Shown here: piece after piece, positions 11,776 to 40,168 of the stretch
How positions within the stretch are numbered: the stretch's first letter is position 1
How the letters are laid out: every line of letters begins with the position of its first letter
The notes under the pieces: generated by a model
What the model saw: the letters and a program-made list of their open reading frames with translations, nothing else
Database searches by the model: none
Told to the model about the DNA's origin: nothing
Assembly: GCA_017439555.1 (NCBI GenBank)
Contig: JAFSIZ010000191.1
Coordinates: 1 to 45,384, forward strand
DNA: 45,384 nucleotides
Reading direction: 5' to 3'
DNA from: Oscillospiraceae bacterium
Lineage (GTDB): Bacteria > Bacillota > Clostridia > Oscillospirales > JAAYXM01
Position numbers and translations under genes: made by a program

Positions 11776-12990
11776 TCAATCGCGGCCGAAGATGTCTCTT
11801 GTATAAACCTTGTCCCTGACGTCGCAAAGCGCGTCTTCATAGCGGTTTGCGATAATGATATCACACATCGATTTGAAGACTGCGGCGTCTGTGACGACCT
11901 CTGTGCCGCCAAAGTCCTTTATATCGCCGAGCGTCGGTTCAAAAATCACGACCCTTATCCCCTTCTCCTCGAGGCGCTTCATAACTCCGCGGATAGAGCT
12001 CTGGCGGAAGTTATCCGAATTGCTCTTCATCGTGAGCCTGTAGATACCGACGACACAGCCCTCTCTGCTGACATTTTCTCCAGCCTTCTTCAAGACGCTT
12101 TCCGCAATGAAATCCTTTCGCGTCCTGTTGCTTTCAACGATTGCGCTGATGAGCCTTTCCGGCACATCGCGATAGTTTGCGAGCAGCTGTTTTGTATCCT
12201 TCGGCAGGCAATATCCGCCATAACCGAAGGACGGGTTGTTATAAAAGTCTCCGATGCGCGGATCGAGGCAGACGCCTTTGATAATCTGCGTTGTGTCAAG
12301 CCCCTTCATTTCCGCGTATGTATCCAGCTCGTTGAAATAGGCGACTCTCAGCGCAAGGTATGTATTGGAAAACAGCTTGACCGATTCCGCCTCTGTCGCT
12401 CCCATATAGAGAATATCGACATCTTCCCTGATCGACGCTTCTTTCAGGAGCTCCGCGAAGCTGTGTGCGACCGCTCCGTTTTCTTCCGAACAGCCGACGA
12501 TAATTCTGCTCGGATACAAATTGTCGTAGAGCGCCTTTGATTCTCTCAGAAATTCAGGGCTGAACAGAATATCCGCCTTACCGTATTTTTCAATCAGCGA
12601 TTCCGTGTAACCGACAGGCACTGTCGATTTTATGACGATTGCCGCCTTCGGGTTTAACTCAATAACCTGCTCTATGACCTGCTCCACCGCGGATGTATCG
12701 AAAAAGTTCTGCTCCGCGTCATAATTCGTCGGCGTTGCCACGATGACGAAATCCGCCTTGCGATATGCTGCCGCGGCGTCTGTTGTCGCAGAAAGGCTGA
12801 GCTTTTTTTCGCGCAGATATTCTTCTATATATTCATCGCGTATCGGCGAAATGCGCGCATTTATCAGCGCGACTCTTTCCTCACACACGTCAACGGCAAT
12901 GACCTCATTCTTCATTGCCAGCAAAACGGCGAGGCTCATCCCGACATAACCTGCACCTGCGACTGCTACGGTATATTTTTTTGCTTGCAT
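11776..12990 (-). CDS. ugd: UDP-glucose 6-dehydrogenase
   Basis: This 404-residue enzyme oxidises UDP-glucose to UDP-glucuronate with two NAD+. The N-terminal Rossmann motif [11 protein letters not shown], the central [11 protein letters not shown] and FSPEFLRE segments, and GGYCLPKD with catalytic Cys261 (Cys260 in the Streptococcus enzyme) are all present. The length matches the short HasB/Ugd group. I start at ATG 12990; a longer frame overlaps the upstream gene and lies before the Rossmann fold. It is the last gene of the operon. UDP-GlcA from this enzyme is the substrate of the UDP-xylose synthase two genes upstream. Confidence 0.95.
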
Positions 12991-13006
12991 CCCCGTCTTA
13001 TCCCCC

Positions 13007-14275
13007 TCATCCAAGGATATCCTTAAAGGCACGATAGTTTTCGCTCTCTGTGCCGCGAGAGCAATAGATTGCAAATTCTACCTTCCGAAACACCTCAGGA
13101 AACTCTGAAAGCGCGGTTTTAAAGGCTTTTGCGACTATGTTCGGATCGTTTTTGAAGGCTCCGCAGCCAAAAGCACCGAGAACGAGAATTTCCGCGCCCT
13201 TTGATGCGGCCACTGCAAGCATACGCTTTGCGCGCCTTACGTGCACCTCATAGAGCCCGTCTGCATCGAGCAGCGTGTCGGGGCTGCAAAGCCCGTTTTC
13301 CGCTTCTCCCGTATATGGCGCGGCGGCGGTTATTACATCGACCTTCACCCAAGCCTCTTTTCCGATTATCTCCGCGGCGGCGCCGTCTTTCCTGAACACA
13401 ACAACATCCTTTGTATAAATCAGGGAATCGGACGCTGCATATGATCCCAGACTTTTGTTATATTGATAATAGCCGCCGCAGATTTCTTCGTCGCTCAGGA
13501 TCCTATAGAGCGTTGAACATCTGCACAGGCTTTCCTCCTGCCCCTCAAAGCCCTCCTTCACGGCGCCGCCCGGCTTTATCGGGTTTGCGAAATTGAGCAC
13601 AGCCACCCTGCTGCCGGGATATTCCCTGTGAAGGTCTGCAGCAGCTTCAAAGCTCTTTTTCCTGCTGACCTCAACCTCCTGCCCCGGCGACGGCACGGCA
13701 TCAAAAACAAGCTCGTCGCCCTCATAAATTACGGATGTATTCTGTTTTGAAAAAAGAACGGACCCGGAGAGCTCAGGCTCCTCATCAATCAGGCGCATTG
13801 TTTCCTCAAACACTTCTTTATTGAGCTCTCTTCTCCTGTTACGCGATGCTGTATCCCGGGCATCAGACGTGCGCGTGACAATGCCGATACGCCCCGTCTG
13901 CCCGCCTGACTTTTCACAGATGACGACAGAACAGCCCTGCTGCTCCAGAACCTTAAGGAGCATCGGGTGGATTTTATCGCCCTCCGAAAAGCCTTTTGGG
14001 ACAACGCCTTCGCCGCTGACTTTTATATTGAATACGTCAAACAGCTCTCTGTGGCTTATTTCCCTGATATATTCGGGAAATCCCCTCCACGCACGCTCAT
14101 TCTCTTCGCCAATCAGATATTCCATCATCTCATACGGGTCACGATAGGCCGTGGAGGCGATAAATCTTCGGCAGATATCTCCATAAAACTCAGGACTGCA
14201 ATGGAGGCAGCGCAGCTGCTCCATATCAATCGCCATCAGCTCTTCCGAAAGCCCTGCTTCGCTTGTTTGCTTCAT
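13007..14275 (-). CDS. TIGR02452/DUF2263-type poly(ADP-ribose) glycohydrolase-like protein
   Basis: This 422-residue protein has the macrodomain-like core of bacterial-type [21 protein letters not shown] followed by the catalytic GQEE (second Glu), CSTLY, then late in the protein [16 protein letters not shown]. Such enzymes cleave ADP-ribose polymers or related ADP-ribosyl links. The first 150-160 residues are an extra region ([17 protein letters not shown] leads into the standard domain) that I do not recognise. ATG 14275 has AGAGG 5 bases before it; ATG 14290 is upstream without proper spacing. Its place between ugd and UDP-xylose synthase, 16 and 22 bases away, is unusual for a DNA-repair-type enzyme. 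Confidence 0.85.
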
Positions 14276-14297
14276 TATATCCTCTCTCATATCCTTA

Positions 14298-15227
14298 TCA
14301 ATATTTTGATCTGAAATATTCTATAGTTGCATCAAGCCCCTCGTCTATGCCGATCTGAGGCTCCCACCCGAGCTCGCGCTTTGCAAGCGATATATCGGGC
14401 TTTCTCTTGATCGGATCATCGACAGGCAGCTCCCTGTATATGAGCTTTGATTCCGACTCTGTTTTTCTGATGATGAGCTTTGCAAGCTCAAGAATCGTCA
14501 TCTCACAGGGGTTTCCGATATTTACAGGGCCTGTGAAGCCGTCTTTTTCCATCGTTGCGATCATTCCGCTGACAGTATCCTCAACATAGCAGAAGCTTCG
14601 CGTCTGCGAGCCGTCGCCATAGATTGTTATATCCCTGTTGTGCAGAGCCTGCACGATGAAATTCGAGACAACGCGCCCATCGTTCTCAAGCATATTCGGG
14701 CCATAGGTGTTGAATATGCGTATCACGCGGATGTCGACGTGTCGGCGGCGCTTGAAATCAAAGAACAGCGTCTCCGCGACTCTTTTGCCCTCATCGTAAC
14801 ACGCTCTCGGGCCTATCGTGTTGACATTTCCCCTATAGCTCTCGCTCTGCGGATGCATAAGCGGATCTCCATAGATTTCGCTCGTGCTCGCCTGGAGAAC
14901 TCTTGCATTGCATTTCTTTGCAAGCTCGAGCACATTCAGCGCACCCATAAAGCTTGTCTTTGTCGTCATTATCGGGTCATACTGATAGTGCACCGGGCTT
15001 GCCGGGCAAGCAAGATTATATATTCTGTCAACCTCGAGCTGTATCGGATGTATGACATCTGCGTGGACATATTCAAAATTCGGGTCGCGGTCAAGCTCGC
15101 TGATGTTCTCATATGTTCCGGTGAACATATTGTCAAGGCATATGACCTTGTTTCCCTCGTGCAAAAGGCGTCTGCACAGATGCGAGCCGATGAAGCCTGC
15201 GCCGCCTGTTACCAATATTCTTTTCAT
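14298..15227 (-). CDS. UDP-glucuronate decarboxylase (UDP-xylose synthase)
   Basis: This 309-residue extended short-chain dehydrogenase has GGAGFIGSH at 8-16, STSE at 114-117 and the catalytic Tyr144/Lys148 in [11 protein letters not shown]. The segment [16 protein letters not shown] is diagnostic of UXS enzymes, which convert UDP-glucuronate to UDP-xylose through a 4-keto intermediate. The C-terminal part, with [12 protein letters not shown] and NIGNP, is complete. It overlaps the PHP gene by 4 bases (ATGA), so the two are translationally coupled. With ugd it gives a two-step UDP-glucose to UDP-xylose route inside the operon. Confidence 0.93.
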
Positions 15228-16660
15228 ATTTCTTCTCTCTGTTTCATCAGATATTTCTTTTTGACAAGCCGCGCCTGCGCTCTTGCGTCCTCATCCCTTT
15301 CAGGGAAATAATAGCGGACAAGGAAATCTGCCAGCTTGACGAGGCGATGCTTTCCATAGCAGAACGGAACGCCGTTGACCGTTTCAACAGCGACGCAGCT
15401 TCCCTCCTTCAGCGCGCGGATAACGTCTTTGTCCTCTCTCGAGTCTGCCGCGACGATTGTGAAGTGCTTGCCGCAGATGCCGTCTGTCGTGTAGCGATGG
15501 GAATCCGTTATGCCGATGAGCGGCACGCCGCTGAAATCGCCGAGCATCTCCCTCACAAGCGAGGTCTGCAGGTTTGCCACATTCCATTCTCCGTAAGGCG
15601 AGCCCGAAACGAGCTCGACGCCGTCAAAACGCTTGTCCTTTCCGAGCGCAGCAAACAGCTGCTCGGGCGTATCCTTGCGGCTGCCGTCAGCATAGACGGG
15701 TTTCCAATAGGGATGAGCCAATATGCTGATTCCTCCCATACGCTTGACCTCGTCGAGAACAGCCTGTGTGTAGGCATAGCTCTCGACGTTACAGCCGATA
15801 TCCTCCGCTTCTCTGATAATTTTTCTGACGGTCTCCGTCTTTGCGAGAGCGGCGCTGAGAAATGTGCGGTCTATCGGCTTTTCCGTGCCAAGTGCCAGAA
15901 TGTGCATCGGTGAAAACGAGAAGGCATATTCCTCGCCGAGGATTACCGTCAGCTCAAGCCCGAGCTCCTTCGCCCTCTGCTTTGCGACGACAGAGCCTTC
16001 AAAGTTGTTGTGGTCTGTCACCGCGATGATATCCATACCCCGCTCTCTTGCCGAGGCGGCGACAAGCTCAGGCTCTTCGATTCCGTCTGAATACGTCGTG
16101 TGCATATGAAAATCAGCCTTGTAGAATTGCTTGCAGGCAAGGTCGTCCTCAAGCGCATAGACGCAGGTCTCGAGCATAAGAGCCTCCTGCCCGTCGAGAA
16201 TATAGAACACGCTGATGTTATAGCGGTCCTCGTGGTCAAACTCGCAATCAAGCTCAATCACCCTGTTTTCCGCGCGGACAACGGCAGAAAACGGCGTATA
16301 TCCCTCTGCCGGATGATACGGATAGTCATAATAAGGCGATACAATAACCCTGAACTCTCCCGAAAGCCGCTGATGCTTATACCTGCTTCCGATGCGCAGT
16401 CTGACAGGCTTTCTGACGGGATAGATAAGCTCCTCCGGCGCATAATACGCCGTCTCCTTTGCTATCAGCGGAAGATGCTTTGCAAAGAACGCCTTTTCGC
16501 CATCGAGGCGAGCGATGTTCTCATCGATTATCTTCTTGACCTCTTCGCGCGAAAGCCCCTTCTTTTCGACTATATCCTCAAGGGCTTTTTTATATTTTGC
16601 CCTTATCCACATATTGTCTTCATAGACCTGCGCGATATATTCAAGCGCTTCATTTTTCAT
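15224..16660 (-). CDS. PHP domain metal-dependent phosphoesterase with N-terminal extension
   Basis: The protein has 478 residues. The first 190 or so contain a helical region and a beta-rich module of unknown type. The PHP domain then shows the full metal set: [26 protein letters not shown] and GITDSHR. Related proteins hydrolyse phosphate esters (polyP-, histidinol-phosphate- or nucleotide-type substrates), and the substrate here is not predictable. ATG 16660 is preceded by AGGAG 10 bases upstream; longer frames run into the upstream gene. It may release a phosphate from a pathway intermediate or process a nucleotide by-product. Confidence 0.88.
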
Positions 16661-16667: not shown

Positions 16668-17399
16668 TCACTCCTGTATTCTGCGTATGAGCTCTGCCGA
16701 CGGGATGTCGCAAAGCTCCTCTGTATCATACGGCTGTGCTCTCCGATATTTTTTGCCGAGCATAAAGCCATCTACCGTCATCTCATATTCGCCGTTTTCC
16801 TCTCTCAGGCTGTAGCAGCCCTTGCGGCACAGCAAGGGATCGCATCTCCCTGTCTCATATTCGAGATAGCATACTCTTCCGACCGTCTGATACCCTATCA
16901 CGGCATCGGAGAAAAACGGCACAAGCCCGAAGCCTGCAAGCCTTTTGGCAAGAGCCCCGTCGCCCGTTTCCATTCCGCAGAAATTCCTTTTGCAAAGAAA
17001 TTTAAGAAACTCATCGGAAAAGCGAAGCTCCCTGACGCGCCCGAGTTGCCCCCAGACTGTCCTTAAATTTTTAAACTCGCGCGAGATAAGCTCTGCTGTG
17101 CCGAAATCCTGAACGATGACGAAGGACTCCTTTTTATAACCGTCCATCATTCCGAGGATTGATGCGACCTCGTCTCTGTTGCGCGAGGTTACATACAGCG
17201 GCGCCTGATATATGGCAGTCTTTTCCGAGGAAAGGACTCTGTTCATCATAAGCACAAGCTCTGAGATGCCGCCGCGGAACATACGTTTATTACACAGCGC
17301 ATCACCGAGAATTATGCCCTTGACATCGCCGTCTCCGCAAAGGCTTTCGAGGATCTTCGCATCATAGCTCTCATATGCCACAAAATATTTATCCATCAT
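16668..17399 (-). CDS. U32-like protein, UbiV-type partner
   Basis: This short (243-residue) U32-like protein lacks the classic N-terminal APAG signature but has the TIM-barrel rhythm and a late Cys group, CYLEYETGRCDPLLCRKGC. It is immediately downstream of, and 4-base overlapping (ATGA) with, a U32 protein resembling UbiU. In proteobacteria UbiU and UbiV form a heterodimer with [4Fe-4S] clusters that hydroxylates the ubiquinone ring without oxygen. I infer an analogous pair here; Cys spacing is similar but not identical to UbiV. The start is chosen at ATG 17399, five bases after GGGGAG. Confidence 0.7.
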   Translation of the reverse strand: MMDKYFVAYESYDAKILESLCGDGDVKGIILGDALCNKRMFRGGISELVLMMNRVLSSEKTAIYQAPLYVTSRNRDEVASILGMMDGYKKESFVIVQDFGTAELISREFKNLRTVWGQLGRVRELRFSDEFLKFLCKRNFCGMETGDGALAKRLAGFGLVPFFSDAVIGYQTVGRVCYLEYETGRCDPLLCRKGCYSLREENGEYEMTVDGFMLGKKYRRAQPYDTEELCDIPSAELIRRIQE

Positions 17400-18253
17400 C
17401 TGCGCTCCCCATACCAATTACTGCGTCTTATATAATGCATCATTCCGGGGATTTCCCTCAGATGCTCAAGAAAGAATTTCTTACTGCTGACGACATCCTT
17501 CACCCTTTGCAGGATATAGCCGAAATCGTTTGTTCTTCCCTCTATCTTAAAGGAGCTGATGCCCATTCCGAGATATATTCCCATCGTGCGATGGAGCTTT
17601 CCCGGATAATTGCCGATGCGCTTTGCGCGACCGAGGCTTTTGCCCGAAAGCAACAGCTCATATTCCTTCTGGCAATAGACATTATAACATTCCTTCTGCC
17701 CGAAATGCGGAAGCAGACACTGGCGATTTGAATTGAAGCATATGCCGCCGTCTGCCACAATCTCATAATCTGCCTCGGGAACGCGGTCTATGATGTCGGC
17801 AATTTCATCCACATACAGGTCGGAGGAAAGTATGATGCGCCGCACTCCCATATCACAGAGGAGCCTTACATCCTCCGCGTTATATGTTCCCGAAAGTGTG
17901 CTTGCATGGAGCTCTGCGTTTTCAATAAACTCCGACACGCGGTATATAAGCCCATAGTCGGCAATTATTATCGCATCTGCGCCCATCTTATCGAGCTTTT
18001 TTATAAGCTCACACAGCTCATCGATTCTCTCGCCCTCGACATTGGCATTGACGGCGACAAACAGCTTTTTGCCGGCGCCGTGGATTATCCCGAGCGCCTC
18101 TTCTATCTCACCGACAGAAAAATCCGACGATTCGGGCCTTGCGCTATAGCCCGAAAGCCCGACATAGATTGCATCTGCACCGACCTCGAGCAGAGGCGCA
18201 ATATCGCTCATTCTGCCTGCAGGCGCGAGCACCTCACATCCCCCAAAACTCAT
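17396..18253 (-). CDS. U32 family protein, UbiU-type
   Basis: This 285-residue U32 protein starts CEVLAPAGRMSDIAPLLEVG and contains ADAIYVGL, ELHASTLSGTYN and a Cys-rich segment in which ICFNSNRQC has the seven-residue Cys spacing of UbiU (Cys169/Cys176), followed by ECYNVYC. It ends with FKIEGR, a U32 signature. It likely carries an iron-sulfur cluster. It is single-domain, unlike the 699-residue U32 protein at 6772. ATG 18253 has AGAGG seven bases upstream. Pairing with the following short U32-like gene and the operon's UbiA/IDI genes points to a biosynthetic hydroxylase rather than a protease; that is inference. Confidence 0.82.
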   Translation of the reverse strand: MSFGGCEVLAPAGRMSDIAPLLEVGADAIYVGLSGYSARPESSDFSVGEIEEALGIIHGAGKKLFVAVNANVEGERIDELCELIKKLDKMGADAIIIADYGLIYRVSEFIENAELHASTLSGTYNAEDVRLLCDMGVRRIILSSDLYVDEIADIIDRVPEADYEIVADGGICFNSNRQCLLPHFGQKECYNVYCQKEYELLLSGKSLGRAKRIGNYPGKLHRTMGIYLGMGISSFKIEGRTNDFGYILQRVKDVVSSKKFFLEHLREIPGMMHYIRRSNWYGERR

Positions 18254-18265
18254 TTCCATACCTCT

Positions 18266-19633
18266 TTATTCATCACAAAATATTTCTCTGAACACGCGCA
18301 GATATTCAAGACACAAATAATAATCGAGCTCAGACTCGCCCGGCCCGTATTTATATGAGATGCGGAATCCCGGATCATAAAACGGGTTTGTCTCCTGTAC
18401 TCTGCGGACAAATGCCGCCTCTTCCTCCTCATCCGCAAACAGCGCACAGAGAGAGGAGCTGCCCGGCAGCTTCTCTATCAGACTTCTGATTTTATCATCA
18501 AAGAAAGCATCGCACATCTGCCTTTGTCTGATTTTCGATGTTCCGTTTTCCTCATATATCTCAGCGCCGAGGCGGAGCATATCGCCGTCTGTAAACGGAT
18601 AGATCCCCGAAATACCGAAGGCATCGAGCATCAGCACACTTTTTTTGAGCACGACCATTGTGCCCAGCTCATATGGGTGTTTTATATAATCCGTGAGATA
18701 ATCCGGCTCTTTTAAATCATAGAAATTGCGGTTGAACACCTGATCTGCACATTCACCGAGCAGAACGCAGGAAACGCCGTTTTGAGAAAGCAGCTTTGCA
18801 AGCTCATATTGAAGAAATACGCCGCGCTCATAAACGCTGCCCTCGAGAATCCGCACAATGCTTTCAAGCTCGCCGAGCGTGTTGCGCGTGACATATGCCG
18901 TCTCAAGGCTTGTCTCTTCCGCCGCATCGCATATGCGCGCAGCGGCGGCCGTCTCGTCCTGTCCGCGGCTTCCGCCTATCGAAAAGGCGCGCGCCTTCTT
19001 TCCGCTCTGCCTCAGGACATGGAGAATGAGATTTGAATCATAGCCGCCCGAAACCGCGATGTTCAGGGCACTGTCATTCCTTTCTGCAAGCGCGATATAG
19101 CGGCCTATTATGACGCGTTCAAGCTCATAAAGCTCAGCCGTTCCGATATTCTTCGGCGCGGCCGTGAACCTCTCAAAGGAGCAGACCCTGAGCCTTCCGC
19201 CCTCGATTCTGAGATACTCATCCGCGAGAAGCTTATATACGCCGCAGATGAGCGTATCTCTTGTGCGGATGAAGCCGTTGTAGATAAACTCACAGACAAT
19301 GTCGTGATTATCATTGAAGCGGCACGCGATGCCGAGCTTTGAAAGCAGCTTTATTGATGTGAACACATAGGTCTTTCCCCCGTGCTCCATATAGAATACT
19401 GTCTTGTTGCCGCCGAGCCTGCTTTGAATCACGCGGCAGACGCCTTCGCGCTTTTCAAACTCAACTGCAATGAAGGCTCCTGCAAGGCTCTCGCGCAGGT
19501 CGGAGAAGGCAGAGCCGTCCGTTATGCCAAAGATATATATGCATTTGTCATCGCGCTCAAAAACCCTTTCGCCTTCACAATGCAGAAATCGGGGAGCGGC
19601 GTTTTCGCTTATCTCCAACAAAAAATCAATCAC
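18266..19633 (-). CDS. Asparagine-synthetase-like adenylating ligase lacking a glutaminase Cys
   Basis: The protein has 455 residues. The C-terminal half is an Asn_synthase/PP-loop domain with AVSGGYDSN (SGGYDS at 195-200) and LLGECADQVF. The N-terminal half keeps the beta-rich shape of class II glutaminase domains (GDNK-like SRLGGNKTVFY) but has no Cys at position 2, so glutamine hydrolysis is unlikely. Such proteins form amide bonds with other amines, for example beta-lactam and lasso-peptide cyclases. The start is GTG 19633, the first possible codon after an in-frame TGA, and overlaps by 4 bases the stop of an 18-codon ORF. A substrate with a carboxylate and an amine is implied but unknown. 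Confidence 0.82.
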   Translation of the reverse strand: MIDFLLEISENAAPRFLHCEGERVFERDDKCIYIFGITDGSAFSDLRESLAGAFIAVEFEKREGVCRVIQSRLGGNKTVFYMEHGGKTYVFTSIKLLSKLGIACRFNDNHDIVCEFIYNGFIRTRDTLICGVYKLLADEYLRIEGGRLRVCSFERFTAAPKNIGTAELYELERVIIGRYIALAERNDSALNIAVSGGYDSNLILHVLRQSGKKARAFSIGGSRGQDETAAAARICDAAEETSLETAYVTRNTLGELESIVRILEGSVYERGVFLQYELAKLLSQNGVSCVLLGECADQVFNRNFYDLKEPDYLTDYIKHPYELGTMVVLKKSVLMLDAFGISGIYPFTDGDMLRLGAEIYEENGTSKIRQRQMCDAFFDDKIRSLIEKLPGSSSLCALFADEEEEAAFVRRVQETNPFYDPGFRISYKYGPGESELDYYLCLEYLRVFREIFCDE

Positions 19634-19713: not shown

Positions 19714-20787
19714 CTATTCTTCGCCGTTGATGAGCATCGTCAGCTCGCCTGTGCAGAGCAGCCAGCAGCCCGGGCAGCGGCACTGCGCCATACGCTTTCT
19801 CAGCTCCGTATATTTTTCGCCATACCATATATCGGAAAGCGAGTTGTCCTTCAGGTTATCGACAGGGCCGAAGCTTCCGCTCCAGCAGGGCAGCACGTTT
19901 TCATATGCGTCAACATAGACCGTTGCATAGCCTGCAAGGCAGCTATAGCCATCGGGAAGTATTTTCCCTTCGTTCATAAACGCCTTGAAATGGCGCAGAA
20001 ATGCGATAGAATTTGCAATCAGATATCCCTCACGCTTCATTTCAATCAGCCTGTCGGTAACGCGGTTTGCCTCATCGGCATCAAACTCTGCAAGCTCATC
20101 GCGCATATGTGAGGTAAACCTGTGGTATGGGCTGAACTGAACGGATATTCCCTTTGCGGAAAAGTGCCTTACCATATCCTCCATCTGCCCGATGTTCTTC
20201 GCCGTGATTACAGGCGTTATATGAAGCCTGACGCTCTCATCCTTTTCCATAAGCCTGCGCACCGCCTCAATGCCCTCAAGCACCGGGGTGAGCGGCGTTC
20301 TTCTCTGCGCGAAATAATCGTGCTCGTCAAGCGAATCGAGCGAGATGACGAAATAGCGCAGGCCGCTTTCATAGAGAGACTGCGCCCTTTCCTTCAGCAG
20401 ACATCCGTTTGTGAGAAGCGCCGGCACAATACGATGAGCCGTTATCCTTCTGACGATTTGTTCTATATCGTTTCTCACAAGAGGCTCGCCTCCGCTGAGG
20501 CTTATCGCCCTGATGCCGAGCGCGGCCGCATCGTCGATGATTTTCTCAAGGTTTCCAAGCGGAATTTCCTGCTTTTGCTCCTTGTCCGCCCTGCTCCTTG
20601 CGTGTTTGCAATAGACGCAATCGGAGTTGCAATAGTTTGTGATTTTCATCATCATATATTGCGGTGGCATATCGACAAGCTCTTTTCCGAGCTCCGCTCT
20701 GATTGATGCTCTCGCCGCATCAAAGCCGACACCCTTTTCACCGAACAACATCTCTTTGATGTCGTCCACATAATCATATATGGTCAT
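19714..20787 (-). CDS. Radical SAM/SPASM enzyme
   Basis: The protein has 357 residues. CNSDCVYC places the three [4Fe-4S] ligands at Cys53, 57 and 60, and SGGEP follows at 98-102. A C-terminal Cys set (283, 301, 336, 338, 341, 345) is the SPASM domain binding auxiliary clusters. SPASM enzymes act on peptides or on small and sugar substrates. ATG 20787 has AAAGGA 8 bases before it. It is one of three SPASM-type proteins in consecutive genes and is the closest to the classical GGEP architecture. Confidence 0.93.
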   Translation of the reverse strand: MTIYDYVDDIKEMLFGEKGVGFDAARASIRAELGKELVDMPPQYMMMKITNYCNSDCVYCKHARSRADKEQKQEIPLGNLEKIIDDAAALGIRAISLSGGEPLVRNDIEQIVRRITAHRIVPALLTNGCLLKERAQSLYESGLRYFVISLDSLDEHDYFAQRRTPLTPVLEGIEAVRRLMEKDESVRLHITPVITAKNIGQMEDMVRHFSAKGISVQFSPYHRFTSHMRDELAEFDADEANRVTDRLIEMKREGYLIANSIAFLRHFKAFMNEGKILPDGYSCLAGYATVYVDAYENVLPCWSGSFGPVDNLKDNSLSDIWYGEKYTELRKRMAQCRCPGCWLLCTGELTMLINGEE

Positions 20788-20810: not shown

Positions 20811-21959
20811 TCAGAAAACAGGGTTTTTTATCCAGCAGCAGCTCTCACACCATTTCGGGAGCTTCCCCTTCATCATGGCAAGGCGAAGCTTTTTATAGAG
20901 CGGGCCGTTCCATATTTCGGAAAAGCTCTGTTCCATAAGATTTCCATAGCGGTGTATCGGGTCATAGCAGCAGGTGGTCATATTGCCCGAAAGGTCGATA
21001 TAGCATCGCTCTGCCGCCCATCTGCACATAGCTCCGCAGTCATATGTGTTCTGCTCAAGCTCCTCTTCCCTGACCAGCTCGCTCAGATATTGCCGCGAAA
21101 GCTCATCGCGCCTTTGCTCCGCTCTCAATATTCTTTCGCGAGAGAGAGTTTCCTCCTCTTCGATTTCCCGAAGCTCTTTTTTTGCGTCTCCCTCTTCCGA
21201 AGGAATCGCAGGAAGCTGAAGCTCTATGCCGAGCCTTTGCGCCTCCTCCTTTGCCGCTCTTGCATTTGCGGCAAGGGTTTGCGGATACAGCCCGGGCGCA
21301 TCGCGGAAGTTTCCGATAACAGGGTTTACCCCGAGCGGATGAAAGCGTACGGAAGCAAAACCGTTATCTGCCGCAAAGCGCACAAGCGCCGCCATATTCC
21401 CGAGGTTATGGCGCATCAGCACGCAATCAAGATTCTTGCGAAGCTTCGGCGCAACGCGGTTGAGTTTTCTGAGATTATCTGTAAACACATCAAAGGAGAG
21501 CCCTCTCCTTATCGTTTCAAAAAGCGCCTTTTCAGAGCCGTCACACGAGACGTTGATGAAGGAGAACCCGTCTTTGAGATATTCCCAGACGTTGTCGGGA
21601 ATCACGGTCAGGTTCGTGTTCGTGCCGATGCTGACACCATATTTGCGGAACAGCGCGAGCGATTTATCTATATCCGCACAGAGGAACGGCTCACCGTCGC
21701 CGTTGAGCATAACCGTCTCCGCATATCTGAGGATATCCTCAAGCGCACAGAGAACCCCGACATCAAGGTCACGGCAGCCGCGGTTGGCTGTATAGAGGTG
21801 ATTGCACATAATGCACCTTGCGTTACAGCGCGTCGTGTGTTCTATCTGGAGATAGCGCGGAAAGAAGGAGACCGAGCCGTCCCAGTCCGCAGGCGGTGCG
21901 CTCTCTTCAAATTCGCGAATACGGCGCAGGTTTTCGCGCTTTTCTTGTTCAAAAATCAT
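20811..21959 (-). CDS. Radical SAM/SPASM enzyme, second
   Basis: The protein has 382 residues. CNARCIMC has its Cys at 45, 49 and 52; the second motif is NGDGEP instead of GGEP; the SPASM Cys set lies near the C-terminus (YDCGAMC, ERC, TTCCYDPI, WCESCC). The start is ATG 21959, with GGAG six bases upstream, one base after the stop of the preceding gene. The overall plan with long SPASM and GDGEP matches that of its upstream neighbour, so the two are probably paralogues. The substrate is unknown. Confidence 0.92.
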   Translation of the reverse strand: MIFEQEKRENLRRIREFEESAPPADWDGSVSFFPRYLQIEHTTRCNARCIMCNHLYTANRGCRDLDVGVLCALEDILRYAETVMLNGDGEPFLCADIDKSLALFRKYGVSIGTNTNLTVIPDNVWEYLKDGFSFINVSCDGSEKALFETIRRGLSFDVFTDNLRKLNRVAPKLRKNLDCVLMRHNLGNMAALVRFAADNGFASVRFHPLGVNPVIGNFRDAPGLYPQTLAANARAAKEEAQRLGIELQLPAIPSEEGDAKKELREIEEEETLSRERILRAEQRRDELSRQYLSELVREEELEQNTYDCGAMCRWAAERCYIDLSGNMTTCCYDPIHRYGNLMEQSFSEIWNGPLYKKLRLAMMKGKLPKWCESCCWIKNPVF

Positions 21960-21960
21960 A

Positions 21961-23481
21961 TCATTCTCCAAGCATAGCTATCATTTTCTGCTTTTGCTGA
22001 CGTTTAAGCTCCGAATCCTGATAGAAATCGGGCTGTATTTCCACATCGAGATATTTAAGCTCGCCGCCCTCTATCATTCCGCATTTGAGGCAGGCCTCGG
22101 GAAGATAGCCCGAATAGAATATTTCCCTGCTCTTTTGCATCAGCGGCGCATTCCACACAGAGAGAAAGCCGCCGTCACTGCACACGTTGCCTGCGCGGTA
22201 TATAAGATTTCTGCAGCAGAGCGAGATATCGCCGTGGAGATTTGTATAACAGCTCTTGAGAAGCCAATCGCAGACGCCCGAGCATTTCACCTTCGTCGCT
22301 ACCGTCGTGTTCTGCTCCTGGCTGTTTTCGGCAATATAGTCCTCTGCGATTTTCGCAATCCTCATCATCTCCCGCTCTTCCTCCTCGCTCTTCCAGAACG
22401 GAATACTCTGCATACGGGAGAGCTCCTCTTCTATTTCCCCGAAGGTGATGCTGCGGTTGAGCGATGCGGCATTTGCGACAACGATTCTCACGCCGAGCTC
22501 CTCGCCCTTTTCAAGCGCCTTGACGGAATAATATTCCGCGACCTTCGGCCAGTTGAGCATAACATCCTGCATATTTCCGATGATAAGGCTCGGGTTGAGG
22601 TTTAAAAATACGACCTGGTCGATGCCGACGCTGTGTGCCAGCTCGACGAGCTGCGGCATCTCACAGACATTCTGGCGCATCATTACCATCGACATAATCT
22701 TTTTGACGTGTGGCGCGCGCTCCTTCAGCAGGCGGAGATTTCCGATGACCTTCTCAAACGACATTCCGATGCGGATTCTTTCATAGGTCTCCTTCGTCGC
22801 CCCATCGACGGAAATTGCGAGCCATTCAAAATCCCTTCCGATATATTCGATGAGCTCGTCATCGAGCACCGACATATTCGTGTTTGCAACGATCCTGTTG
22901 CCATAGCCGACATACATATCTATCTGCTGTTTTAAATATTTGCTTATAAACGGCTCGCCGATGCCGTTGAGGTTTATGCGGCGGCTGAGCTGTATGGCGT
23001 CGCGCATATGCTCAAGCGTCTCCATACTCAGAAGCTCCGCTTTTTTGTTGTGGGAATGATAGTGCTCACACATAATGCATCTGCTGTTGCAATAGTTTGT
23101 GGACTCTATCTGAAAAAAATCGGGGTATGACCTGTTGACTGTGTTTTTGCAAAGGAAATCAATGTCACACAGAACCTCGTTTATGTCCTTTGCGGTCTCC
23201 CAGTCGCCGCGGTTTATATATTCCGCTCTTTCGCCGACGAGCGCATCGGCATCAGCGACGGCATATATGCGCCCCTTGAAATATATGTATACAGACTCAA
23301 AGTGTGAGGTTTCGTCCTTTTTGAGCTTCGGCACGAGCTCATGATCGACAACCAGCGCAGCTCCGCCGCGCGAGAGCTCCTCATATCCGACAGACTCTGC
23401 CTTCTCTGACGGAAAGCGCACACTCATCGCCGCGAAAAGCTCATCACGGCTGTTTTCCTGACAATAAATCAATATGCTCAT
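21961..23481 (-). CDS. Radical SAM/SPASM enzyme with N-terminal extra domain
   Basis: The protein has 506 residues. About 120 N-terminal residues form a separate domain (starting MSILIYCQENS, with YIYFKGRIYAVAD) that I do not recognise. Then comes CNSRCIMC (Cys131, 135, 138), GIGEP, and a C-terminal SPASM Cys set (CSGVC, SCYTNL, LCCRN, CLKCG). The start ATG 23481 overlaps the upstream UbiA gene stop by 4 bases and has GAGG 4 bases before it; longer frames have no ribosome site. Its tight coupling to UbiA suggests that both act on the same intermediate. Confidence 0.92.
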   Translation of the reverse strand: MSILIYCQENSRDELFAAMSVRFPSEKAESVGYEELSRGGAALVVDHELVPKLKKDETSHFESVYIYFKGRIYAVADADALVGERAEYINRGDWETAKDINEVLCDIDFLCKNTVNRSYPDFFQIESTNYCNSRCIMCEHYHSHNKKAELLSMETLEHMRDAIQLSRRINLNGIGEPFISKYLKQQIDMYVGYGNRIVANTNMSVLDDELIEYIGRDFEWLAISVDGATKETYERIRIGMSFEKVIGNLRLLKERAPHVKKIMSMVMMRQNVCEMPQLVELAHSVGIDQVVFLNLNPSLIIGNMQDVMLNWPKVAEYYSVKALEKGEELGVRIVVANAASLNRSITFGEIEEELSRMQSIPFWKSEEEEREMMRIAKIAEDYIAENSQEQNTTVATKVKCSGVCDWLLKSCYTNLHGDISLCCRNLIYRAGNVCSDGGFLSVWNAPLMQKSREIFYSGYLPEACLKCGMIEGGELKYLDVEIQPDFYQDSELKRQQKQKMIAMLGE

Positions 23482-24500
23482 AAATCCTCTGCTCCCTTCT
23501 GTTTTTCCCTCGAAAGCTTTGATTTCACAAAAACGGCCGCGATACCGAGCTTTATCTTCATCATACTGTAGCAGCAGATGAGGATGAACAGGGAAAAAAG
23601 CCCCGCCCATCTGTTTATTTTCATCATACACAGCCCGAACATAAACGGCATTATCGCATTGAGGAACGCCTCGAGCGGCACGGAATCAAACGAAACGATC
23701 CAATCCTTCTTCGCATAGACATTGAGCACCATCCAGATGCAGAACTCGAGCGCGATATTGAACATCACGCCTGCGAGAATGATTGCCTTATGCGCCGCAA
23801 ACAGCGGTATCATAAGCAGCAGACAGCAGATGCCCTCCGATATTGCGAGAGCTATCACAAACCTTCTGATATTTACCCGGCCGTCTGCTACAAACGTGTG
23901 TGTGCCGCTGAGCCTATCGTTCTCGCGGTCTGTATACTGATGGATGAGAATATATCTCAGCCCGTCAAAGAACGAGAGAACAAACCATATAATCCACACA
24001 AAGGCATTCGTCCCGTCGAACCCGAAGAACAGGAACAGGGGTGTGAGCGGCAGGCAATGCTGCGCGACAGAGCATTGTATGAGACCGAGCACTCCGCGCT
24101 CCTTGAAGCGTATTCCCGGTATTGAATATGCAACGCCCATAAATGTCGTCACTATGATAAGCGCCGCGCACAAAAGCTTGTTTTCCGCGCAGAGCATAAT
24201 CGGAATATCGCCGATAAGCGCCATAATCACAAACGACAGCCATATGACAGGGCGCGGAAGGCTTGCAATTACCTTTTTCTTTCCGACCTTCATATCCGCT
24301 TCCATATCCGAAAAATCGTTTGCGACATAGCTTATCGCCGCAAGCATCGACAGAAACAGGAAATAGGCGCCGAGGATTTTTGCTGCATCATATATGCCGA
24401 CATTGCCGAGGCACATGAAATATGCCGCGACGCCGAGCATCATCGTCACCTTTGAGCTTATCCATTCATCGATGCGGAGATATCTGAAAAGATTTTTCAT
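23478..24500 (-). CDS. UbiA family prenyltransferase
   Basis: This 340-residue polytopic membrane protein has about eight or nine hydrophobic segments. Both Asp-rich motifs that bind Mg-diphosphate are present: NDFSDMEAD at 61-69 and YTDREND at 189-195. UbiA enzymes transfer a prenyl group to aromatic acids, quinone precursors, glycerol phosphates or sugar phosphates. The acceptor is not predictable. It overlaps idi by 4 bases upstream and the SPASM gene by 4 bases downstream. This coupling to an isoprenoid isomerase strongly suggests a prenyl-transfer step in the pathway. Confidence 0.93.
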   Translation of the reverse strand: MKNLFRYLRIDEWISSKVTMMLGVAAYFMCLGNVGIYDAAKILGAYFLFLSMLAAISYVANDFSDMEADMKVGKKKVIASLPRPVIWLSFVIMALIGDIPIMLCAENKLLCAALIIVTTFMGVAYSIPGIRFKERGVLGLIQCSVAQHCLPLTPLFLFFGFDGTNAFVWIIWFVLSFFDGLRYILIHQYTDRENDRLSGTHTFVADGRVNIRRFVIALAISEGICCLLLMIPLFAAHKAIILAGVMFNIALEFCIWMVLNVYAKKDWIVSFDSVPLEAFLNAIMPFMFGLCMMKINRWAGLFSLFILICCYSMMKIKLGIAAVFVKSKLSREKQKGAEDL

Positions 24501-25015
24501 CCTCTCTCCCCCTCAACGAGCTTTATGACCCGGGGCGCAGCTATGAGAAACCAGCTTGAATACCTCTCGGGATGGGTGACAAGCTCGTCTCCCAGCTTCC
24601 CGATATCAATCCACCTGTATTCCGAAGCCTCTTCCTCATTCAGCGAAACAGGGCCGTCATAGCTTCCGAGAAGCACGTGGTCAAATTCATATTCATAGAG
24701 GTTTTCGGCAAAGGCCGTCCTATAGGTGAAGCTGAACACCTCTTTTACCTCACAGTCGATCCCGAGCTCCTCCGCCATCCTGCGATGAACGGCACACTCA
24801 AGCGTCTCACCCTTTCTCGGATGTGAGCAGCAGGCATTTGCCCAGAGGCCGCCCGAATGATATTTGTTGACGTTGCGCTTCTGAATAAGCATTTTGTTGC
24901 CGTTTACGAGAAACACGGAAAAGGCGCGGTGGAGCAGACCCTTTTCGTGGGCATATGCCTTTTCCGCAGAGCCGATTTCCCTGTCATATATATCTACAAG
25001 AATCAGTTCATCCAT
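24497..25015 (-). CDS. idi: Isopentenyl-diphosphate delta-isomerase, type I
   Basis: This 172-residue Nudix-fold enzyme converts IPP to DMAPP, providing the allylic primer for chain elongation. WANACCSHPRKG contains the catalytic Cys63 (aligned with E. coli Cys67), with His29 in GLLHRAFSV; AVHRRMAEELG is the Nudix-like helix, and YEYEFDHV holds the metal/acid Glu pair (108, 110). Type I is less common than type II in Firmicutes. It overlaps the APH-like kinase gene by 8 bases and UbiA by 4. Confidence 0.95.
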   Translation of the reverse strand: MDELILVDIYDREIGSAEKAYAHEKGLLHRAFSVFLVNGNKMLIQKRNVNKYHSGGLWANACCSHPRKGETLECAVHRRMAEELGIDCEVKEVFSFTYRTAFAENLYEYEFDHVLLGSYDGPVSLNEEEASEYRWIDIGKLGDELVTHPERYSSWFLIAAPRVIKLVEGERG

Positions 25016-25970
25016 TTATCTGTCCCTTTTCCTCTTTCTCCATCTGTGTCCACCAATGCGGAACGGGGTTTTCATAGTTATCGAATACCTCGATGAAGTT
25101 GTTTGCCTGATTGACGATCATCTTCCCCGTTTTGTCATATTTATATATCGCATAATCGAGAAGCTTCATTATGCTGAAATAGAGGTTTGTTTTCCAGAAT
25201 TCAAGCGGAACTCCGCCGCCGAAATATGCTTTTATCAGCGCATAGGAAAACGGTCTGTATTTCGCCTCAGACATTACCGTGAGATAGGTAAAATCAGCAA
25301 AGGCATCGTTGAAGGTTCCCGAATCGAAATCATAGATATAGAGGTTATCGGGCGTGAGGATGAAATTCTCAGGTCTTACATCGTTGTGAACAATGCAGGC
25401 GCGCTCCTCGGATATGAGGCCCGCGTTTTCCTCAAGATAGGCAATGGCCTTGTCCATACCCGAAAAATCAATGCCGCACTGCCTTATTTTCTCTCTCAGC
25501 GCATCCGCCGTCCTCGTTACCCACGGCGCAATCCTTGCTCCGTTCTGCGCCAGAGCCGCTGTCACGAATTCCTGATGATGCACGGAATACAAAAGCCTTC
25601 CGAGCCTTTCTCCGTATTCCTTCATAAGCTCCGGCTTTTCCGAAAACACGGAGTTGAGCTGCTCGCCCGATATCCATTCCGTGAGCGTGACCACATGGCA
25701 GTTTATAAAGCCATAGCGCACAGGCCCGAGCACACACGGGTCCTTGCTGCGCATCATCGCAAGCGCCTGATACCAGGCAACTCTTGCGCGGTTGCTTTCG
25801 TCTTTTTCAAGGTTGCCTTCAATGACCTTCAAGATATAATCACTGCCCTCGCAGGATACCTTTACCTTGATATCATAGGAGCGGCCGCCGCTCACCTCGG
25901 CAAGCGTATACGGCTTTCCCTCAAAGCATTCCTCAAGAAAAGGAATATATTCCGCTATCTTTTCCCTCAT
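25008..25970 (-). CDS. Aminoglycoside-phosphotransferase-fold kinase
   Basis: This 320-residue APH/choline-kinase-like protein has Lys48 in ILKVI, the catalytic loop VHNDVRPEN (His195, Asp197, Asn202) and metal-binding DFDSG (Asp214). Such kinases phosphorylate aminoglycosides, choline, homoserine or other small hydroxyl substrates. In this operon it is more likely to act on a biosynthetic intermediate than to confer resistance. An 8-base overlap with idi places it in the prenyl block. ATG 25970 is preceded by AAGGGG. Confidence 0.9.
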   Translation of the reverse strand: MREKIAEYIPFLEECFEGKPYTLAEVSGGRSYDIKVKVSCEGSDYILKVIEGNLEKDESNRARVAWYQALAMMRSKDPCVLGPVRYGFINCHVVTLTEWISGEQLNSVFSEKPELMKEYGERLGRLLYSVHHQEFVTAALAQNGARIAPWVTRTADALREKIRQCGIDFSGMDKAIAYLEENAGLISEERACIVHNDVRPENFILTPDNLYIYDFDSGTFNDAFADFTYLTVMSEAKYRPFSYALIKAYFGGGVPLEFWKTNLYFSIMKLLDYAIYKYDKTGKMIVNQANNFIEVFDNYENPVPHWWTQMEKEEKGQING

Positions 25971-26001: not shown

Positions 26002-26913
26002 TTATCGCACAGGCGGCAGCTGCTCACCCGAGATGATTGTCGCAGGTTTTCTCTCGCAATAGCTGCACGCAGGCAGATGCCTTATCGCAAAGAATTTCCT
26101 TATCTTTTCCTTTGCCTCTTCCTTGCTCTTTATTTCGTCAAAGCAGATGACATCGTCTCCGCCGCTCTCTATTCCATGCTGTGCGAGATAGCTCGCGCGG
26201 CCGCAGCGATAGAGCGTTTTGTTGTTATAGATCGAGCAGCTGTTCATCGTGCAGTGAATAAACATATCATCGAGCTCGCGCCTGCTGTGGGCGCGCTTTT
26301 CTATCTCTCCGAAATCCAGCCACTCAGGATGGAACTGTGATACATAGAAAATCCCATATTCCCGAAGCTTTTCGCGCAGCTTCTCACGCGTTTCGATGTG
26401 ACGCGCGTCTATGTGTTCATATTCCGAAAGGTGAACAGACGCGCCGCTGTCCCTTATCGCGCAAAGTGTTTCGTCATCCGGAATTATCGTTCCGTTTGTC
26501 GTTACCTCAAGATGCTCTATCTTTTCATATGATGCGCAGATTCTTATGATTTCCGCAAGCTGCGGATTGAGAAACGGCTCACCGCCGATAATACTTCCGA
26601 CGCATATCCTGTCAACGTATTTTGTCAGCAGGTCAAGATTTTCGCGTATTTCCTCAGGCGGCATATGGCGCTTTTCCCGATAATAGGGAATGCATTTCGC
26701 ACATCTTTTACAGCGCAGGTTACAATGCGTTGTCACATCTATGTCGATAAACGGAATAACCGTCTCCGATTCCGTGTTCATCACAAGCTTCAGCTTCTCA
26801 TACAGCGTGCGCTTGATTTTGCGCTGTCTGTCAAACCCGAAGATGCGGATTCTGCCATAATATCTGAACCGCCCGAGCCGCGGCAGGATATATCTGAGTT
26901 TTTTACGAAACAT
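26002..26913 (-). CDS. Radical SAM enzyme, fourth of the operon
   Basis: The protein has 303 residues. CNLRCKRC carries Cys64, 68 and 71 and an extra CAKC follows; IGGEPFLNPQL is at 109-119. After the barrel come HCTMNSC, YRCGR and ACSYC, which could ligate an auxiliary cluster. The N-terminal 40 residues are very basic (KKLRYILPRLGRFRYYG), unlike the other three, and may contact membrane or nucleotide-charged surfaces. GGAGG is 6 bases before ATG 26913. It differs in family from the SPASM trio and is separated from them by the UbiA/idi/APH block. Confidence 0.92.
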   Translation of the reverse strand: MFRKKLRYILPRLGRFRYYGRIRIFGFDRQRKIKRTLYEKLKLVMNTESETVIPFIDIDVTTHCNLRCKRCAKCIPYYREKRHMPPEEIRENLDLLTKYVDRICVGSIIGGEPFLNPQLAEIIRICASYEKIEHLEVTTNGTIIPDDETLCAIRDSGASVHLSEYEHIDARHIETREKLREKLREYGIFYVSQFHPEWLDFGEIEKRAHSRRELDDMFIHCTMNSCSIYNNKTLYRCGRASYLAQHGIESGGDDVICFDEIKSKEEAKEKIRKFFAIRHLPACSYCERKPATIISGEQLPPVR

Positions 26914-26937: not shown

Positions 26938-27798
26938 CTAAATGTTGATTATGCCGCACTTTATGCTTCCGTGGTATTTCCCGGCAAGGTGGCATATGAT
27001 TTCCACAACGAACAGCCACGCGAACTTCCTGCCGAGGAGCGTTCCCCATATGTTTTTGAAGAGCGCACCGTATAGCCTTGTGTCTATGCAGAATTTCTTC
27101 CCCGAATAGACCTTCTGCAGCTTTGAGCTTGAAACGCCGTTGCGGAAGCTCTTTCTGCAGATTCCCTTGAGATTTCTCGGCGAATGTGCAATGATTTTTG
27201 CCGACGGCACATATTTGAGCACAGCGCCTTCGTCCAGCGCTCTCCAGCAGATATCGATATCCTCTGCATTGTTTGCAAAGTAATCGCTGAAGCCGCCTAT
27301 TTTTTCGAGCAGCTCGCGCTTATACGCACAGCTCGCCGTGATAAACGCCGTGTTGAGCGTTTTGTCCTTGACATAATATGGCTCGTCGCCATAGGACATC
27401 AGAATCTGGAGCGACAGATGCCCCCAGAATTCTTCATAGATATTGTCTGTCTCCGCAGGCTCGATATATGTTCCGAGCCCGTCTATATTGTCCTCACAGA
27501 AAGCCTTTCTGATTTCTGCAAGCCATTCTTTATCCGGGATGCAATCGGCATCTATGAATGCGATCACATCGCCCTTTGCCGCCTTGATGCCTGCGTTTCT
27601 GCCGCCTGCCGCGTGCCTTTTCTCATTGTCGATGACGATTGCGCCATATTCCTTTGCAATCTCAACCGTGCGGTCCCGGGATTTTCCGTCAGCAACGATG
27701 ATTTCATATGGCTTTTCCGAGCCTTCCGACAACGCCTGCAGGCAGTTGCCGATGCAGCTTTCCTCGTTATATGCAGGAATAACAACCGAAATATTCAT
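26938..27798 (-). CDS. Glycosyltransferase family 2
   Basis: The protein has 286 residues with GT-A fold signatures: SVVIPAYNEESCI at the start, VADGKSRDRT, the metal-binding AFIDADC, and ADA/ED-type NNAEDIDICWRA with the catalytic Asp. A C-terminal hydrophobic segment around LFVVEIICHLAG may associate with the membrane. GT2 enzymes transfer a sugar from a nucleotide donor, here perhaps UDP-GlcA or UDP-xylose, to a lipid carrier or an acceptor. It is 24 bases from the fourth radical-SAM gene. Confidence 0.92.
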   Translation of the reverse strand: MNISVVIPAYNEESCIGNCLQALSEGSEKPYEIIVADGKSRDRTVEIAKEYGAIVIDNEKRHAAGGRNAGIKAAKGDVIAFIDADCIPDKEWLAEIRKAFCEDNIDGLGTYIEPAETDNIYEEFWGHLSLQILMSYGDEPYYVKDKTLNTAFITASCAYKRELLEKIGGFSDYFANNAEDIDICWRALDEGAVLKYVPSAKIIAHSPRNLKGICRKSFRNGVSSSKLQKVYSGKKFCIDTRLYGALFKNIWGTLLGRKFAWLFVVEIICHLAGKYHGSIKCGIINI

Positions 27799-27816: not shown

Positions 27817-29001
27817 TTATTTATTTTCCGTTATAAATCTTATTGCGTGTCCGTCATACATCAGCGCATCGCCCGACGCAAACTCAAGCTCAACCTCGCA
27901 TTTGAACAGCGCGTCTATATCCTGCTTCAGCTGCGGCAAGACGCGGAAATCCCCCGTCTGCTCCAGAATCACGCGCACCCTTTCGCCACGGATTGCGCGG
28001 TATTCGCCCATAAAGCCGTGTCTGAACAGGACCTCCTCAAGCATAGCCGGGAATATATATTCTCCGCCGATTTCGATGGAATCCGCCATTCTTCCCTTAT
28101 AGCGGAAGCGCGGCAGCCCTCTGCCGCAGAGGCAGGGTGTTGTATCCACAGCGATATAATCGTCAGTCCAGTATCTGAGTATCGGAAATCCCTTGTCCCA
28201 GAGCGTGGTATATACAGCGACTCCATATTCACCGGGCCCGACGGGCAGCCCCGTCTTCGGGTCAACGACCTCGATGAGCAGATATTCATCCGGATAGTGG
28301 ATGCCGCACTTGTGGCGGCATTCGCCGCCCATAGGTCCGAACACCTCGCTCATTCCGAACATACAATAGCAATCCGCGCCCCACGCCTTTTCGAGAGCAC
28401 GGCGCCTCCCCTCTGTCAGGAAGCCGCCGCCGAGAAGCATCATTCTGACATCTGATTCCTGCGCGGTTTTTTCAAATTCAGGGTTGCCGATTATCGAGCT
28501 CACGACGCTCGGCCTCGTCGCAACGATGGAGACCGGTAGCTTTGTTATGAAGTCCATCATATTGTCAGGCGATGGCTCCGGGCAGTTGACATAGCCGCTG
28601 CCCATAGTCGTGAACTGCCACATCATCGAATGTGCCATAACGCCTGTATCAACAGGCGCGAACACGCCGCCGAGGTCATCCGCCCTGACGCCGAGTTCCT
28701 CATAGAAGAGCTTTACAAACCTTTCGTGAACGGCCTTGTCCCTGTTGCTGTAGACATAGAAGGTCTTTTCACCTGTCGTGCCGCTGCTCGAGAAGATGCC
28801 ATAGACCTCGCCGGGGGAAGCAAAGCACCTGTCAAACGGCTTTGTCGCCCTTATGTCTTCCTTTTTCATAAAAGGAATTTTTGTAAACTGCTCATAGCTT
28901 TCAAAGGCATCAACTCCGCCGAGCCTGTCTGCATAGAAGCTTTTTTCAAAAACGCCTTGCTCATAAAGCGAGCGCAATTTCCCCATCACTTTTTCGTACA
29001 T
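27817..29001 (-). CDS. Phenylacetate-CoA ligase (PaaK)-like adenylate-forming enzyme
   Basis: This 394-residue ANL-superfamily protein has IFSSSGTTGEKTFYVY as the phosphate-binding P-loop, MFGMSEVFGPMGGEC as the adenylate motif and RYWTDDY as the hinge-region Asp. It is closest in style to PaaK and its shortened relatives, which activate aryl or acyl acids to AMP esters and then thioesters. The C-terminal domain is short but present. Similar truncated PaaK-like proteins load aryl groups in natural-product and capsule clusters. In this operon an aromatic or short acyl acid is a reasonable guess. Confidence 0.88.
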   Translation of the reverse strand: MYEKVMGKLRSLYEQGVFEKSFYADRLGGVDAFESYEQFTKIPFMKKEDIRATKPFDRCFASPGEVYGIFSSSGTTGEKTFYVYSNRDKAVHERFVKLFYEELGVRADDLGGVFAPVDTGVMAHSMMWQFTTMGSGYVNCPEPSPDNMMDFITKLPVSIVATRPSVVSSIIGNPEFEKTAQESDVRMMLLGGGFLTEGRRRALEKAWGADCYCMFGMSEVFGPMGGECRHKCGIHYPDEYLLIEVVDPKTGLPVGPGEYGVAVYTTLWDKGFPILRYWTDDYIAVDTTPCLCGRGLPRFRYKGRMADSIEIGGEYIFPAMLEEVLFRHGFMGEYRAIRGERVRVILEQTGDFRVLPQLKQDIDALFKCEVELEFASGDALMYDGHAIRFITENK

Positions 29002-31284: not shown

Positions 31285-31572
31285 CTAACCTCTCTTTTCA
31301 ATTAACCATTCTTTCAGCTCCGCATATGGAATATTGATGCATTTCAGATATTCCGAAGTCTGATAATCAAGAGAGCAGATGAACAGTATTGCCAGAAATA
31401 CCGACCATTTCATCGCGCTTTTTCCGCTCTCGATATTGACGATGGTCTGGCGGCTGACGCCGATGATATCGCCGAGATCCTGCTGTGTGAGATTGTTCAT
31501 TTTTCTGAGAACGGGCAATTCCTTTGCCAATTTTTCCGTGCACGATTTAAACAGTTCTTCCCTTTTTTCCAC
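31285..31572 (-). CDS. XRE-family helix-turn-helix regulator, head of the operon
   Basis: The protein has 95 residues. A Cro/C1-type HTH spans about 25-55 (NLTQQDLGDIIGVSRQTIV, then NIESGK). The C-terminal 40 residues (a Leu/Ile/Phe-rich segment, then charged) may be the dimerisation part. The start is GTG 31572 with GGAGGG seven bases upstream; no ATG is better placed. As the first gene of the 19-gene operon, with repeated motifs in its promoter region, it is likely an autoregulator of the pathway. Confidence 0.88.
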   Translation of the reverse strand: MEKREELFKSCTEKLAKELPVLRKMNNLTQQDLGDIIGVSRQTIVNIESGKSAMKWSVFLAILFICSLDYQTSEYLKCINIPYAELKEWLIEKRG

Positions 31573-31997: not shown

Positions 31998-32064
31998 TGG
32001 GAGAGGAAGCCTTTCGGGTAGAGCTACAACACCGCCATTACATAACGCAAGCCCGAAACACAAC

Positions 32065-40069: not shown

Positions 40070-40090
40070 AACACACGCCCCCCGGCCAAA

Positions 40091-40106: not shown

Positions 40107-40168
40107 TTGACGAAAGGAGCATCATCACTTTGCTCCGACAGCTGCTACAACATTCCGCGTGTCATTCC

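Follow-up and report, generated by a model that had tools for sequence, protein, structure and literature searches.

What do two short, adjacent U32 proteins do beside a UbiA prenyltransferase in a gut member of the Clostridia with no ubiquinone genes in view? To our knowledge, all characterised U32 iron-sulfur hydroxylases act on quinone precursors or RNA, while the original prediction for this locus was a UbiU/UbiV-like pair outside a ubiquinone pathway. In the following, the pair is traced through its surroundings, its relatives and its residues, in the 45,384-nt stretch of Oscillospiraceae DNA given above (the window) and in the other genomes that carry it.

The gene pair and its cluster

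Both genes of the predicted pair are present on the minus strand as adjacent reading frames whose overlap is an ATGA, indicating that U32B is translationally coupled to U32A. For U32A, ATG 18259 (287 aa) and ATG 18253 are start candidates, with an AGAGG at better spacing for 18253, and the stop codon is TGA 17398-17396. U32B is preceded by a GGGGAG ribosome site, may start at ATG 17399 (within the ATGA) or at 17396, and stops at 16668. The pair belongs to an operon-like minus-strand run (31572 to 11776) in which no gap exceeds 80 nt and whose genes follow in this order:

31285..31572, minus strand: HTH regulator, the cluster's first gene (PF01381; same-place homologue in two relatives, 67-72% identical)
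30154..31281, minus strand: GT2c, family 2 glycosyltransferase (77-79% identity in homologous clusters)
29026..30138, minus strand: GT2b, family 2 glycosyltransferase (80-84% identity in homologous clusters)
27817..29001, minus strand: CapK/PaaK-like AMP-dependent ligase (PF00501; NF045666 below cut-off)
26938..27798, minus strand: GT2a, family 2 glycosyltransferase (71-80% identity in homologous clusters)
26002..26913, minus strand: rSAM4, radical SAM protein (domain match; motif CNLRCKRC)
25008..25970, minus strand: APH-like kinase (PF01636, 6.2e-15)
24497..25015, minus strand: type I isopentenyl-diphosphate isomerase, IDI (NF002995, 141.9 bits, cut-off 127)
23478..24500, minus strand: UbiA-family prenyltransferase with both Asp motifs, NDFSDMEAD and DREND (PF01040, 2.5e-10)
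21961..23631, minus strand: rSAM3, radical SAM/SPASM protein (domain match; motif CNSRCIMC)
20811..21971, minus strand: rSAM2, radical SAM/SPASM protein (domain match; motif CNARCIMC)
19714..20787, minus strand: rSAM1, radical SAM/SPASM protein (domain match; motif CNSDCVYC; conserved in the cluster)
18266..19633, minus strand: asparagine-synthetase-like ATP-dependent ligase with motif SGGYDS, without the N-terminal glutaminase Cys (PF00733, 1.7e-15)
17396..18259, minus strand: U32A, U32-family protein (PF01136, 3.4e-30; family alignment; best fold match 5D88)
16668..17399, minus strand: U32B, UbiV-like partner of U32 fold (hhalign to UbiV, E 5.5e-6; tree; best fold match 5D88)
15224..16660, minus strand: PHP-domain metallohydrolase, 7 nt past U32B (PF02811, 5.2e-12; conserved in the homologous loci L009 and L010)
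14298..15227, minus strand: NAD-sugar SDR (72-77% identity in four homologous clusters), which from sequence motifs and general knowledge we take to be UDP-glucuronate decarboxylase (UDP-xylose synthase)-like
13007..14290: TIGR02452-family (macrodomain/PARG-like) gene, flanked by the genes for the UDP-xylose synthase-like SDR and UDP-glucose dehydrogenase
11776..13074, minus strand: UDP-glucose 6-dehydrogenase, a nucleotide-sugar dehydrogenase (TIGR03026, 314 bits, above cut-off)

The vicinity of UbiA and IDI, already pointed out in the original prediction, is a real and conserved link: both genes lie upstream of the pair in the run, within a larger prenyl-lipid/glycosyl cluster. Within this cluster, no aromatic-ring-making gene was clearly recognised. 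The search for conserved small ORFs yielded the HTH regulator only, and on this ground a RiPP cluster was rejected. The open-licence papers searched held no description of such a cluster.

Several further features of the window were recorded. An RlhA-like U32 protein, unrelated to U32A and U32B, is encoded at 6772-8871 and adjoins a short zapA-like gene. Repeat copies of about 60-230 bp with 85-98% identity are dispersed over the window (81-201, 31769-32000, 40258-40317 and 45145-45370) where no genes were recognised, and one of them lies a short way upstream of the HTH gene that opens the cluster. Additionally, the palindrome AATGTTCCACGTGGAACATT is found twice (40089-40108 and 40492-40511) just upstream of a parA/parB pair; both copies are probably parS sites, which suggests a region near the replication origin.

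Distribution of the pair

Scanning of genome contigs showed that five other species, Claveliimonas bilis, Candidatus Mediterraneibacter excrementavium and three uncultured Clostridia known from metagenome-assembled genomes (MAGs), encode the same two proteins next to similar neighbours, at protein identities of 48-74%. A sixth species has a more distant version (L022, from a genome in the Lachnospiraceae sample). Since pair and neighbours recur in other species, U32A and U32B are not a chance find. In the window and all six other genomes, the two genes are always adjacent and reside in the same kind of cluster; identity to the window in the five close carriers amounts to 67-73% for U32A and 48-62% for U32B. 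The whole cluster, in near-identical order, is also found in the complete genome of the named species Claveliimonas bilis, together with a GT4 glycosyltransferase, one more radical SAM protein and a geranylgeranyl (GG)-reductase-like flavoprotein. The latter, often present in related clusters, scores 94.5 bits with TIGR02032, below the cut-off of 158.8. Two local peculiarities were noted: in L010 (11600-14572), the PHP-domain gene downstream of U32B exists in two tandem copies, and the distant cluster version is adjoined by a gene for a 1253-aa protein that combines a TIR domain with beta-propeller repeats (L025 13759-17520, genome G519).

Among 398 genomes of the phylum Bacillota, the only U32B match was the window's own; a weak match at class level (G348, E 4e-4) was set aside, as it falls in an unrelated frame of 362 aa. 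In a sample of 397 genomes from the family of C. bilis, the cluster's UbiA was present in four genomes, three of which also gave U32B in a search of equal size. The cluster occurs sporadically among gut Clostridia. In the fourth UbiA carrier (G549, contig C16, L072/L073), a sister cluster contains PaaK, IDI, GT2a-c, UbiA, several radical SAM proteins and the GG-reductase-like protein, and no U32 pair was found in it. As the core pathway thus occurs without the pair, U32A and U32B are most simply an added tailoring step, that is, an optional module of a core prenyl/glycosyl pathway.

U32A retains the hydroxylase motifs with three cysteines

The Peptidase_U32 model PF01136 recognises U32A with 105.5 bits (3.4e-30), well past its gathering cut-off of 22.4. 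The TrhP model (NF011996) gives 131.8 bits (3e-38) over residues 8-187 only, below its cut-off of 534, and no C-terminal TrhP domain is found in U32A; the UbiU model (NF047963) gives 90.3 bits (1e-25), below its curated cut-off of 440. The CX6C spacing (C174/C181) and FKIEGR originally noticed in the first protein are both there. In the alignment, every U32 hydroxylase motif is present, with E166-x7-C174-x6-C181, H118-x-S120 and KIEGR. The invariant residues E166, C174 and C181 correspond in the alignment to E162, C170 and C177 of TrhP; hydroxylation requires these TrhP residues and likewise their counterparts in RlhA (PMC6599085).

All seven U32A sequences share C174, C181 and C196 (CX6CX14C), while C8 occurs only in the window and the five close relatives, L022 having lost it, and C191 varies even among the six close homologues, the window's included. 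Of the UbiU ligand set CX6CX16CX38C, the U32A family keeps CX6C and C196 only: it lacks the third canonical Cys and, through a deletion, the region of C232. H185 is invariant across the family at a position where UbiU has Ser. Judged by this alignment, U32A is a protein with three candidate Cys ligands and without the fourth Cys of UbiU or of the canonical set, and this departure is real. As fourth ligand, C8 (in the close relatives), H185 or a residue of U32B could serve, or the position could stay empty. Since a conserved fourth Cys is lacking in U32A, its iron-sulfur cluster may differ from that of UbiU.

U32B is a divergent UbiV-like partner

U32B has no match in Pfam or NCBIfam, so the UbiV model NF047965 (cut-off 275 bits) is not reached either, and it is admitted to the U32 superfamily by profile and fold only. 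The CX8CX4CX3C group ascribed to it is indeed present in the window (C176, C185, C190, C194), but C194 varies among homologues and C35 is conserved instead. In the six close homologues, window included, C35, C176, C185 and C190 are invariant; in all seven sequences, C35, C176 and C190. The distant L022 protein has lost C185 and retains C194. For comparison, the published cysteines of UbiV (C39; C-X12-C-X3-C) served as standard (PMC6747719). C35 is located in LGDxxCxKR, the counterpart of LGExxCxKR with C39 in UbiV, and the C-Xn-C-X12-C-X3-C of L022 is exactly the UbiV spacing, the close homologues showing CXnCX8CX4C with a variable last Cys. By alignment, the U32 catalytic Glu is absent from U32B.

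Relationship to known U32 proteins

Profile comparison (hhalign) relates U32B to UbiV with an E of 5.5e-6 over 162 columns and to UbiU with 8e-4, the alignment with UbiV having LGxxxCxxR and the C-X12/13-C-X3-C region in common. For U32A, the corresponding values are 9e-26 to UbiU vs 1e-7 to UbiV. In a joint tree, a 100/99.7 branch splits U32B and UbiV from all other U32 proteins, a placement limited by long branches; the two are separate groups, U32B not being nested in UbiV. U32A forms its own 100/100 clade on a long branch, and UbiU is a separate 100/100 clade. Which of UbiU, TrhP and RlhA is nearest to U32A is decided neither by the tree nor by AU tests (p 0.27 with UbiU, 0.73 with TrhP as sister group). 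A recent duplication of one U32 gene was considered as well and discarded, since a clade of U32A with U32B is rejected (p 0.034). Given the long branches, these placements are taken as support, not proof. The two proteins do not jointly fall in the peptidase/RlhA branch, the alternative placement named beforehand: U32B lies elsewhere and U32A on its separate branch. A collagenase-like/peptidase identity found no support from motif or context.

AlphaFold models of U32A and U32B (mean pLDDT 74-76) both have the U32 protein 5D88 as best PDB match (E 1e-6 and 3e-5, TM about 0.5), the Cys-loop segments of both models being below pLDDT 50. Hence, the designation as a UbiU/UbiV-like pair stands for the resemblance, with U32B joining UbiV in tree and hhalign and U32A carrying the motifs, but it does not extend to the curated cut-offs of UbiU and UbiV, which neither protein reaches. 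By these models and trees, neither U32A nor U32B is UbiU or UbiV proper.

No quinone pathway found with the pair

No UbiT-type SCP2 match was found in the window's genome (84% complete) or near the cluster in its relatives, and no ubiquinone pathway genes were found with the pair. In six of the seven cluster-bearing genomes, including the window's, the sole UbiA-family gene found is that of the cluster; the seventh, a fragmented MAG, has its single UbiA on another contig. The quinone prenyltransferases UbiA, MenA and MqnP are all UbiA-family proteins. With the cluster's UbiA as the only one, a complete quinone pathway is unlikely in those genomes, and the carriers appear to make no quinones, in agreement with a survey in which quinone pathways are missing from many Bacillota (PMC13386864). 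The location outside a ubiquinone pathway, as originally claimed, is thus borne out by the lack of UbiT/SCP2 and by the single UbiA within the cluster.

Proposed function and alternatives

UbiU and UbiV bind one [4Fe-4S] cluster each and form a heterodimer (PMC6747719). U32A and U32B would form a heterodimeric iron-sulfur protein of the same build, in which U32A, with its Glu-x7-Cys-x6-Cys motif, would be the catalytic and U32B the divergent, UbiV-like supporting subunit. By family analogy, this complex would hydroxylate an intermediate of the cluster's own product without O2, as a tailoring step outside the backbone machinery. The product is most likely a prenylated lipid: IDI would supply the prenyl group and UbiA attach it, the GG-reductase-like flavoprotein of related clusters would probably saturate it there, and the GT2/GT4 enzymes would decorate the product with sugars from UDP-xylose-type donors. 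The oxygen donor would, by analogy only, most probably be prephenate. A prephenate dehydratase gene in six of the seven cluster-bearing genomes makes prephenate available in the cell; this is, however, a general housekeeping gene, and prephenate use by the pair is argued from analogy only. That the pair is an O2-independent hydroxylase of the U32 oxidase type, UbiU-UbiV-like, tailoring the cluster's prenyl lipid and most probably dependent on prephenate, we consider about evenly balanced between right and wrong. A far more specific version is rather improbable: that fermentative gut Bacillota, regarded as quinone-free, make a so far undescribed prenylated, ring-hydroxylated, glycosylated, possibly quinone-like lipid by means of an O2-free hydroxylase in whose three-Cys cluster an iron site remains accessible to substrate or prephenate.

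The same complex in the same pathway might instead catalyse another O2-free redox step, such as dehydroxylation, dehydrogenation or electron transfer to the radical SAM enzymes, a reading that is possible though on the unlikely side. The three cysteines of U32A family-wide and its invariant His185 in place of the UbiU Ser could mean changed chemistry, as could the position of U32A outside every characterised clade; yet it retains all residues needed for hydroxylation in TrhP and RlhA (PMC6599085), and each characterised U32 iron-sulfur protein is tied to hydroxylation (PMC11574389). Should the pair modify tRNA in the manner of TrhP1/TrhP2, its place in the cluster would be happenstance. TrhP is the best-scoring model for U32A, a U32A+TrhP clade survives the AU test, and TrhP1/TrhP2 of B. 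subtilis is likewise an adjacent U32 pair (PMC6599085). This explanation is nevertheless highly improbable: the genome already encodes a TrhP-like protein (C88) besides the RlhA-like one, U32B resembles UbiV, and the pair is rare and bound to one cluster, unlike housekeeping RNA modification.

Very unlikely, too, is a role as U32 peptidases in the maturation of a radical-SAM-modified peptide. Four radical SAM proteins (three with SPASM) and the asparagine-synthetase-like ligase stand nearby, as in some RiPP clusters, but the HTH gene is the only conserved small ORF, the hydroxylase motif is retained, and the UbiA, IDI, glycosyltransferase and GG-reductase-like genes suggest a lipid. The hydroxylase pair proposed here most likely works like UbiU/UbiV and is yet distinct from it, as a new variant among U32 oxidases. 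If so, O2-free U32 hydroxylation would extend beyond quinones and RNA to specialised lipids of gut anaerobes, a natural three-Cys variant would bear on the role of the iron-sulfur cluster in U32 hydroxylases, and the cluster would point to an undescribed class of prenyl lipids in gut bacteria.

Comparison with known systems

The closest parallel is UbiU-UbiV, the O2-independent ubiquinone hydroxylase of Pseudomonadota such as E. coli, which shares the adjacent short U32 genes with a canonical-like first and a divergent second protein, the tie to a UbiA prenyltransferase and, in UbiV, the upstream Cys motif of U32B as well as the exact CX12CX3C of the L022 protein. In contrast, the present pair comes without UbiT and ubiquinone genes, in gut Clostridia; U32A is outside the UbiU clade and has no equivalent of C232, and U32B has diverged far too much to be recognised by the UbiV model. 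TrhP and TrhP1/TrhP2, acting in prephenate-dependent hydroxylation of tRNA U34, share with U32A the best single-model score and E-x7-C-x6-C, and in B. subtilis the tandem arrangement, whereas U32A lacks the C-terminal TrhP domain, has X14C instead of CX15CX3C, and is accompanied by a UbiV-like partner in a biosynthetic rather than an RNA context. RlhA, which hydroxylates C2501 of 23S rRNA, has the U32 domain and catalytic motif in common, but U32A and U32B carry no further domain, and the window encodes its RlhA-like protein elsewhere. MK0906 (PDB 5D88), finally, is the best fold match of both models, and no other reported match belongs to the U32 family; at about 12% identity to the pair, the likeness is one of predicted fold.
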